Positions 47,721 to 49,016 of a stretch of 64,000 nt of DNA are shown piece after piece. The stretch's first letter is position 1. Every line of letters starts with the position of its first letter. The notes under the pieces were generated by a model. It was not told the DNA's origin and ran no database searches. It saw nothing but the letters and a program-made list of their open reading frames with translations. Made by a program: the position numbers and the translations under genes. The stretch is from an uncultured Bacteriovoracaceae bacterium (lineage in GTDB: Bacteria > Bdellovibrionota > Bacteriovoracia > Bacteriovoracales > Bacteriovoracaceae), in the NCBI GenBank assembly GCA_950054155.1, contig CATLOT010000001.1, forward strand, positions 186,001-250,000, in the 5' to 3' direction.

Positions 47721-47765
47721 GGCTCTTCACACTTAAGGGTGTTTTCACTGCATCATAAGGCATAA

Positions 47766-47794
47766 AAAAAGCCATCTTATAAAGACGGCTTTTT
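47766..47794. terminator. Terminator downstream of the SDR gene
   Basis: AAAAAGCC and GGCTTTTT pair, with inner TCTT/AAGA and one mismatch, giving A and T runs on both sides. It serves the SDR gene; read on the minus strand it also follows a tRNA 3'-end copy (47800-47810). Confidence 0.85.
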
Positions 47795-47799
47795 GTTTT

Positions 47800-47810
47800 T
47801 GGTGGGTCAT
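47800..47810 (-). repeat. Extra copy of the tRNA 3' end (copy 1)
   Basis: On the minus strand this reads ATGACCCACCA, identical to the last 11 bases of the tRNA at 48940 (3' acceptor strand, discriminator and CCA), and is followed by a terminator hairpin as at the tRNA itself. No tRNA body is attached. Confidence 0.6.
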
Positions 47811-47860
47811 TGATGTCACTAGTTGAACTCTTGAGAGATTGATCTTGTTTTTTTTGTAGT

Positions 47861-47882
47861 AATTTGACTGGTAAGTCAAATT
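47861..47882. promoter_or_regulatory. Perfect 9-bp inverted repeat before the island lipoprotein
   Basis: AATTTGACT and AGTCAAATT flank GGTA. No T tract follows. It lies 135 bases upstream of the lipoprotein gene at 48017 and could be an operator. Confidence 0.35.
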
Positions 47883-48016
47883 GTCATTTATGGATTGTAG
47901 ATATGGTTTTATTGAAATTTATAAAAGGATAAGGTGCGTGTAATTATTTCATAGGTGGATTCTTATTATCTAACGCAAGGTCTAGGATAAACTAAACAAA
48001 TAAATAAAAGGGAAAA

Positions 48017-48577
48017 ATGTCTATGAAAAATTTTTTAAACTCATTGTTATTTACTTTACTAATATCACTAACTGGTTGCTTTAATTCTTACACCCATTCA
48101 CTGTGTGCTGGAAAAACTCAAGTAAATCTTAATTCCTATGTTGGAGAATACTCAATGTATATGAATTTTCTTGGACAGGAAGTAAAAGAAGGAAAACTAG
48201 ACTTTAAAAAAGGATCTAGTCAGGGAACTTACTCTTTGTATGATGAATATGGGGAAATCTCTTTCGAAGATATGGTAAGTTGTAAGGTAGGAAATCAAAT
48301 TATTCTTGAATCAGAGATGGAGACCGAATCAGGGAATACTACCTCTCTTTTTAGCACAATGTTAGTAGAAGTTAATCCTAATAATGAACTCATTTTGAGC
48401 TTATCGGAATTAGACTATGATCTGTTGTCACAAGATAATGTTCCAACAGTTGAGCTTGCCCCAGATGCTTCCTATGGCCTAGGTGAAGTATTAGTTGCGA
48501 TTGAAAATCAAAATCTAACAGCCAAAGAAGTTCTTCTATATTTTAATAAACCAGGTATTATACAAATAAAAAAGTAA
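48017..48577 (+). CDS. Low-GC lipoprotein gene inside the tRNA-repeat island
   Basis: A signal with lipobox LISLTGC (Cys20 or so) leads a 165-residue beta-rich domain (VGEYSMYMNFLGQEVKEGKL, DFKKGSSQGTYSLYDEYGE). AGGGAAAAA precedes the ATG; a second ATG follows two codons later. It has fewer G and C than its neighbours and sits between tRNA 3'-end copies, which suggests acquisition. No family recognised. Confidence 0.65.
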   Translation: MSMKNFLNSLLFTLLISLTGCFNSYTHSLCAGKTQVNLNSYVGEYSMYMNFLGQEVKEGKLDFKKGSSQGTYSLYDEYGEISFEDMVSCKVGNQIILESEMETESGNTTSLFSTMLVEVNPNNELILSLSELDYDLLSQDNVPTVELAPDASYGLGEVLVAIENQNLTAKEVLLYFNKPGIIQIKK

Positions 48578-48643
48578 GGTTGACTAAGGGTTCAGAATTA
48601 TCCTTTTAGGCGAGTTCTTGATAATATAAACTATCCTTTAAAA

Positions 48644-48681
48644 ATAAACTAAGCCATCACGTCAAAGATGGCTTTGTTTAT
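48644..48681. terminator. Long bidirectional terminator after the island lipoprotein
   Basis: AAGCCATC and GATGGCTT form the core, extended by ATAAAC/GTTTAT outside one mismatched pair. A T-rich run follows on the plus strand. Confidence 0.8.
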
Positions 48682-48737
48682 TTTTGATCTGTTGTTACAT
48701 TAAGACTAAACTTTTTCTTTATCGAAAAAGTGAGAAA

Positions 48738-48748
48738 TGGTGGGTCAT
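48738..48748 (-). repeat. Extra copy of the tRNA 3' end (copy 2)
   Basis: Reads ATGACCCACCA on the minus strand, identical to the tRNA 3' end, followed by a weak hairpin (ACTTTTTC/GAAAAAGT). No tRNA body precedes it, though CTGGACTTG of the T-arm recurs about 17 bases away. Confidence 0.6.
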
Positions 48749-48886
48749 GCGTTCCACACTGGGCTGGACTTGGTCTCATGCGGTCGGCTTCGTGCCTCCC
48801 TTTTCGACCCGGTTCAGTCGCTTCCGTTCGCTTCACGCTCACTCTTCGCCTAGCGGCGCGCTCTTTCACTTCAAATCCATCATGCC
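48749..48886. other. GC-rich non-coding patch next to the tRNA
   Basis: About 140 bases much richer in G and C than the surroundings, with repeated CGCTTCCGTTCGCTTCACGC-like words. Frames through it (for example 48730-48969) run into the tRNA and look artificial. I see no gene; it may be a remnant or structured repeat. Confidence 0.4.
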
Positions 48887-48893
48887 AAAAAAA

Positions 48894-48935
48894 AACCTCT
48901 CAGAATATTCACTTACGTTCATATCCTAAGAGGTT
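48894..48935 (-). terminator. tRNA terminator
   Basis: AACCTCT and AGAGGTT close a longer imperfect stem and, on the minus strand, run into nine T. It starts four bases after the tRNA CCA end. Confidence 0.8.
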
Positions 48936-48939
48936 TTTC

Positions 48940-49016
48940 TGGTGGGTCATACTGGACTTGAACCAGTGACCACCCGGTTATGAGCCGGGGGCTCTAACCA
49001 ACTGAGCTAATGACCC
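48940..49016 (-). tRNA. tRNA with CAU anticodon (Met elongator or Ile2)
   Basis: A 77-base cloverleaf: acceptor GGGTCAT/ATGACCC (seven pairs), D stem GCTC/GAGC, anticodon stem CCCGG/CCGGG with loop CTCATAA (anticodon CAU), T stem ACTGG/CCAGT, loop TTCAAGT, and an encoded CCA. CAU is used by tRNA-Met and by tRNA-Ile2 after lysidine modification; the sequence alone does not settle which. Two extra copies of its last 11 bases lie downstream. Confidence 0.95.

Follow-up and report, generated by a model that had tools for sequence, protein, structure and literature searches.

What leaves several exact copies of a tRNA 3' end lying one after another behind the tRNA gene itself? The question is raised by a stretch of 64,000 nucleotides (hereafter, the window) from the genome of an uncultured Bacteriovoracaceae bacterium (G000). 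The single tRNA gene called in the window by ARAGORN is tRNA-Met(CAU); it adjoins dapF, an adjacency also seen at many of the family loci examined. When the last 11 nt of this tRNA (ATGACCCACCA, 48940-48950), comprising the 7-nt 3' strand of the acceptor stem followed by ACCA, are taken as the reference tail, three exact copies are found in the window, all on the minus strand, where 0.03 would be expected by chance and where none of 100 shuffles reached three; genome-wide there are four copies, three of them at the tRNA-Met locus, and none of the reversed control sequence. Chance matches as the source of the copies are ruled out by these shuffles and this control, and many other 11-mers do not match the tRNA by chance. 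Each tail is followed by a T-run-trailed hairpin, with arms at 48921-48938 and 48891-48908 behind the tRNA, with arms at 48667-48685 and 48640-48658 behind the copy at 48738, and within 47762-47795 behind the copy at 47800. An earlier note on this DNA, according to which the tRNA end recurs exactly at 47800 and 48738 with a terminator-like hairpin behind each copy, therefore described the locus correctly.

The same note had read the repeats as the borders of one small island, holding a lipoprotein gene and a GC-rich patch and left either by repeated integration at the tRNA gene or by loss of tandem copies of it. Both contents are indeed present, but they belong to two separate insertions rather than to a single island (Table). 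It is likely that two unrelated small pieces entered one after the other behind tRNA-Met(CAU), and that with each of them the tRNA stayed intact while a copy of its tail came to lie at the far end of the piece. The first would consist of a terminator, a non-coding hairpin element with a T-arm-complementary left arm and a three-way-junction core, and a tail copy. The second would be a single-gene cassette, made up of a terminator, a lipoprotein gene on the opposite strand, a half-site and a tail, and would represent one of a changing set of cassettes carried at this tRNA by the genomes of the family.

Table. Features of the tRNA-Met(CAU) locus, in window coordinates. G005 is a genome of the same genus; R1 is the covariance model described in the text.
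Feature	Position	Strand	Basis or remark
tRNA-Met(CAU), intact	48940-49016	minus	ARAGORN
Terminator-like hairpin directly behind CCA	48887-48939	minus	53/53 nt identical to G005
Left arm TGGATTTGAA, reverse complement of T-arm 3' half TTCAAATCCA	48870-48879	minus	sequence and family test
Structured core, three-way junction with tandem-GA hairpin GTGAGC-GTGAA-GCGAAC	48813-48866	minus	model R1 match
Right arm CCAAGTCCAG (tail copy's T-arm 3' half), pairing with left arm	48764-48773	minus	sequence, fold
15-nt interruption CCCAGTGTGGAACGC, separating right arm from acceptor tail	48749-48763	minus	absent in G005
Tail copy 2 ATGACCCACCA, end of hairpin insertion	48738-48748	minus	exact match
Terminator-like inverted repeat behind lipoprotein gene	48640-48685		inverted repeat I1
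Predicted lipoprotein ORF, 186 aa, lipobox LTGC (cargo)	48017-48577	plus	within 47811-48737
Lipoprotein gene cassette including closing tail copy, 938 bp	47800-48737		absent at G005 junction
Half-site GTTCAACTAGTGACATCA adjoining tail copy 3	47811-47828	minus	repeated 3 times in G005
Tail copy 3 ATGACCCACCA	47800-47810	minus	exact match
Terminator GCCGTCTTTATAAGATGGC	47762-47795	minus	G005: directly after hairpin tail (about +190), again after tail at +1484

The first insertion runs from the tRNA end to the tail copy at 48738 and comprises the terminator and the GC-rich patch (48749-48886). As a candidate coding sequence, the patch offers only short overlapping ORFs, and Rfam 15 gave no match to it above threshold. 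Along the tRNA strand, the predicted fold has the order terminator, left arm, three-way junction, second structured part, and right arm with tail, the junction consisting of a stem that closes it and of two hairpins, A and B, the latter (GTGAGC-loop-GCGAAC) containing two G-A mismatches. The element lies 73 nt behind the tRNA-Met and is followed by 11 nt of that tRNA's own tail, as is typical of the family defined below; only 11 of the usual 21 nt are continuous because of the 15-nt interruption in front of them, which is possibly a trace of another cassette end.

Is such a sequence peculiar to this tRNA? A DNA search with the patch recovered it in G005, behind both tRNA-Met and tRNA-Leu(CAA), and in other genera, where it follows tRNA-Phe, -Asp and -Trp. 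An exact scan of GTDB genomes for the hairpin motif returned 43 stretches; in the records of Bdellovibrionota type, 9 of 10 motif copies (counted by hand) stand behind a tRNA on the same strand, while outside these records a tRNA is near the motif only once (L118, on the other strand). A Selenomonadaceae MAG, Sheep_1_mag_3, carries the motif GTGAGCGTGATGCGAACG at six places (L078, L097, L099, L103, L111 and L118), its copies being closed by CCCGCC/GCGGGC, followed by a second repeat and mostly not situated behind tRNAs. In an alignment of seven cores, none of them from the window's genus, 21 cells carry changes on both sides, where shuffling gives 9.1 (sd 2.3) and 0 of 500 shuffles reach as many; the count is rough, since not every member is aligned in register. 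The covariance model built from these seven cores (R1) finds the window core in its own genome with E 3.3e-6 and 32.9 bits. It matches 53 of 339 genomes of the phylum, with the window copy included. The weaker matches (E 1.1e-4 to 0.01, about 31 rows) were set aside in the counting; among the latter, a row of G005 was already covered and two rows of G048 fall inside a stretch that was examined.

Among the 80 of 83 model hits examined (the others are the weak secondary hits L355 350-415, L344 1072-1118 and L344 3694-3740), 59 follow a tRNA or tmRNA gene on the same strand at a distance of 20-419 nt, involving 24 gene kinds with tmRNA included, and the proportion is 51 of 72 when the eight hits identical to model sequences are omitted. 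At least 11 nt of the gene's own 3' tail recur behind the element in 40 of the 59; in 22 of the 59 the repeat is exactly 21 nt long (positions 56-76, counted by hand), and it is never longer, while the tails of other tRNAs, used as a control, match behind the elements in only 7 of 3368 comparisons. In 52 of the 59, the left arm resembles the T-arm 3' half in reverse complement more closely than it resembles the 5' half, with one case of the reverse and six ties. Terminator-like hairpins occur between tRNA and element in 20 of 50 cases (4.8 after shuffling). Elements also stand behind tmRNA (L341 of G235 and L321 of G148), the latter with a 21-nt copy of the tmRNA tail. As for the 21 hits lacking an upstream ARAGORN call, several have a tRNA-like tail or are cut by a contig end, and some sit behind protein genes; in two genera (L349 and L362), the hairpin core stands right behind genes with GroEL-like C-termini and has no tRNA tail. 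A phage origin was also considered, since the exact motif occurs in six viral stretches; on these, which are devoid of a tRNA, no model score exceeds 23.9 bits, so that they lend it no support. The literature searched contained no description of this hairpin family.

Does the element insert, or has it always been part of these tRNA transcription units? An answer is suggested by two genomes of one genus, G076 and G108, that share the same tRNA-Met. In G108, the trailer TTCATGTCACTAGTTGAA stands directly behind the CCA; in G076, the CCA is separated from the matching trailer by two hairpin elements, each with CAAGTCTTGCATGACCCACCA as its closing sequence, such that the native trailer TNATGTCACTAGTTGAA is found behind the CCA in the former and behind the last tail in the latter. 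Identity is 79.5% between the trailers (91.7% without gaps) but only 51% between the upstream flanks, and the genomes are therefore not close strains. Insertion with duplication of the tail predicts just such an arrangement, by which the new terminator behind the tRNA would have arrived together with the element. By the same logic, with the native trailer lying beyond the last tail, the terminator behind the CCA in the window would be the left end of the hairpin insertion.

These observations also bear on the possibility that the hairpin is a selected small RNA or 3'-processing structure, whose tail copy is a part of the RNA and not the scar of a mobile piece. The tyrT rtT RNA of E. coli provides a model for such a tail copy. 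The compensatory changes in the core would agree with it, as would the occurrence of similar modules behind protein genes (GroEL-like C-termini in two cases) and the fact that the element and its terminator are far better conserved between the window and G005 than the neighbouring spacer: terminator and element are 100% and 90% identical, respectively, compared with 56% for the spacer and 67% for dapF. This conservation fits a recent transfer, but it would fit a conserved function too. Against this reading stand a patchy occurrence in 53 of 339 genomes, a tRNA partner that differs from genome to genome, occupied and empty sites within one genus and copies whose tails have decayed. We therefore consider a purely functional RNA rather improbable, and insertion of the element behind a pre-existing tRNA remains the preferred reading.

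The second insertion, the lipoprotein cassette, can be recognized by its absence from G005, where the tail of the hairpin element is immediately followed by the terminator whose window counterpart stands behind the copy at 47800; the 938-bp piece is thus missing at that junction. The predicted lipoprotein itself has no Pfam match. Further on, G005 carries other genes, three of which are closed by the half-site GTTCAACTAGTGACATCA with at most two letters different, two of them having intact tails and one a damaged tail, and the half-site also occurs, in reverse complement, behind the tail of G076 and G108. Around the tail, as a candidate general recombination site, the half-sites form at most a weak inverted repeat overall, with a mean of 8.87/16 over 52 sites against 8.27 (maximum 8.54) for letter-shuffled sites and 8.47 (maximum 8.87) for swapped right flanks, which thus reach the observed value, although some single sites are good. 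The comparison with relatives for which the earlier note had called hence yields empty sites for both kinds of piece, G005 for the cassette and G108 for the two hairpin elements of G076; and in place of three copies fixed with the same content, relatives differ in the number, position and content of their tail copies.

How far does this variation reach within the family? Mostly single genes make up an array in G016, where they are set apart by five tail copies with a conserved, roughly 200-bp leader (two further leaders are partial); several of the genes take their start codon (MVM...) from the leader. When 115 genomes were searched with one leader, 27 places turned up in 11 of them; by their coordinates, 24 of these places are downstream on the tRNA-Met contig, and three are on other contigs (G096 twice, G101). 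A leader profile gave 34 hits in 13 of 76 genomes, all downstream of tRNA-Met and in one orientation, with none upstream, where the available stretch is, however, short (about 0.5 kb) for many loci. The cassettes encode an S41 peptidase, GNAT, MerR and Rha-like proteins and proteins without Pfam match, so that the same location holds different genes in different relatives. Rha does not qualify as an array-only gene, given that it occurs in 33 of 115 genomes, with several copies lying outside the tRNA-Met contig. Between genera that share 39-54% identity in dapF, the single yardstick used, cassette genes are 75-94% identical. Copies of a genome's own tail (at most one mismatch) downstream of the tRNA number 22 on the same strand and five on the opposite strand, compared with 3.5 for shuffled acceptors, in 74 of the 76 loci (G099 and G103, included in the leader profile, did not pass the tRNA filter and were omitted from this count); they are present in 13 of the 74 genomes and absent from 61, several loci having less than 2 kb downstream. 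Terminator-like hairpins follow the tRNA-Met in 42 of 73 cases (10.4 after shuffling) and the cassette tails in 19 of 26 (3.2 after shuffling). Many leader cassettes carry ATGGACCACCA regardless of the tail of the host tRNA, and the hairpin element of G015 carries the tail of the tRNA-Met of G008 and not that of its own tRNA, which indicates that tails travel with the pieces.

Other rearrangements of tRNA ends are seen in the same family. Behind the tRNA-Met of G004 (L012/L043) and G003 (L013/L044) stand 43-nt tail copies that start in the anticodon loop and are preceded by an inverted copy of the 5' side of the anticodon stem, in what looks like a possible anticodon-loop version of the same idea, and in G013 a full T-arm case was seen. 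Elsewhere in the window's own genome, a tRNA-fMet (L138, G000:C6) is followed at about 58-118 nt by a different small hairpin, GCAGGATTCGGTCTTTATATGGTTCGCTGAATGC..GCATTCAG, and then by the 14-nt tail of that tRNA; nearly the same core is found, in tandem form, behind tRNA-Arg(TCT) of G003 (L175).

Could the tails instead be what is left of tandem tRNA genes that decayed or were partly deleted, with their 3' ends and terminators spared? Terminators stand behind the tails just as they do behind tRNA genes, and G016 has, about 120-35 nt upstream of its tRNA-Met (L016/L046), a second, mutilated tRNA-Met copy with a duplicated upstream flank and with an unrelated hairpin in place of the anticodon stem; tandem duplication does therefore happen in the family. 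Near the tail copies of the window, on the other hand, no 5' part of a tRNA was found, the sequence that precedes the second tail belongs to a family located behind 24 kinds of tRNA and tmRNA genes, the tail behind the patch in G015 is that of a tRNA-Met from another genus, and arrangements lacking such pieces occur in G005 and G108. Loss of tandem copies is consequently very improbable, and the interpretation offered by the earlier note is, as a whole, partly supported: repeated integration is borne out, its alternative is not.

If pieces are added repeatedly, what adds them? Entry might proceed by site-specific recombination at the T-loop/acceptor end, with the enzyme supplied in trans, each incoming piece presenting the tRNA with a new tail and a new terminator and pushing the old tail outwards; judged from the static arrangements of these sequences, such site-directed recombination may both add and remove cassettes. 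An integrase using this tRNA, which the earlier note had suggested looking for, was not detected at the tRNA-Met locus in the seven genomes searched with PF00589, although all seven have matches elsewhere; as the locus itself has none, the entry mechanism is one that we infer and do not show. In the window's own genome, tyrosine-recombinase matches occur within about 250 nt of a tRNA gene on G000:C27 and G000:C31, and these are candidates for a trans-acting enzyme or may belong to ordinary islands. The want of an integrase at the locus would also suit RecA-dependent homologous recombination between tail and terminator repeats, requiring no site-specific enzyme: in G005, these repeats are about 50 bp long and 94% identical, and the shared leaders of about 200 bp could recombine as well. 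Recombination of this sort would nonetheless leave unexplained how the hairpin spread to 24 kinds of tRNA gene with a tail repeat of exactly 21 nt, and why the left arm follows the sequence of each tRNA. For this reason, we regard it as unlikely to be the whole basis of the arrangement, and favour site-specific entry.

It is tempting to go one step further and to view the hairpin elements as a new class of tiny non-coding mobile element (about 130-300 bp with the terminator). Such an element would enter any tRNA or tmRNA gene at the T-loop, with a duplication of exactly positions 56-76; it would supply a fresh terminator, and its left arm would be copied in inverted form from the tRNA entered, for instance through fold-back or RNA-templated synthesis, leaving every copy closed by T-arm sequence of its own host. 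This proposal is tentative, and we would rather doubt it than assert it. If the element is mobile, it would be among the smallest tRNA-specific mobile elements known, and the agreement between the left arm and each host tRNA would allow the way in which it inserts to be tested directly.

How do these pieces compare with known systems? Transfer RNA genes are landing sites for phages and for islands of many kilobases. Here, sub-kilobase, integrase-free pieces pile up behind the same tRNA, one of them a structured element found behind 24 tRNA and tmRNA kinds across a phylum, and the cassette array is a compact natural setting in which to follow the turnover of genes at a single tRNA in bacteria of predatory type. 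Integrons, too, are arrays of mostly single-gene cassettes behind a fixed site, and their enzyme, as may be the case here, can possibly act in trans; the present arrays differ in that the fixed site is a tRNA 3' end, that the genes have their own leader and that no IntI-type integrase was found next to the array (no PF00589 match at the locus in the seven genomes).

A closer parallel is provided by additive flexible genomic islands, in which pieces are added at a tRNA with 3'-end repeats, as described for fGI-2 of 'Ca. Methylopumilus' (PMC10872708), for 'Ca. Actinomarinales' (PMC7771536) and for Alteromonas (PMC5217437). Shared with them, as far as the relevant passages go, are the tRNA-end pieces, the recurring 3'-end direct repeats that delimit what has been added, the variable content and size (fGI-2 from 330 bp) and, with the Actinomarinales islands, cassettes common to several genera. 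By comparison, the present cassettes are mostly single genes, one group of which shares a leader supplying the start codon, and the window also has a non-coding hairpin element, of which those passages make no mention. The cassette half of the locus thus resembles a member of this known kind. The hairpin element fits instead the geometry of the islands defined by Islander, which restore the tRNA and displace a fragment of it (PMC4383910), tRNA fragments having been treated as integration scars elsewhere too (PMC9897764): an intact tRNA lies at one end and its fragment at the other, in the correct orientation, tmRNA is a target and a T-stem site class is among those listed. Islander islands, however, must hold an integrase and have size peaks at 13.6 and 39.9 kbp according to the sections concerned, whereas the present pieces measure 0.2-0.9 kb and no integrase gene was found in the window's intervals (ORFs and PF00589 search); the element is far smaller, gene-free and follows the sequence of its host tRNA. 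Tycheposons, in the account given of them in PMC10872708, likewise have a tRNA-Met at their border and carry cargo, but they span 4-200 kbp and possess a xerD-type recombinase, in contrast to the sub-kilobase pieces without one described here. Phage Ms6, finally, whose attB lies in the T-loop of tRNA-Ala, recombines in a tRNA T-loop as well, yet it is, from what is reported in PMC1762012, an autonomous phage that uses one isotype. Set against all of these, the locus is ordinary in principle and unusual in scale, and the GC-rich patch is the more surprising of its two pieces.
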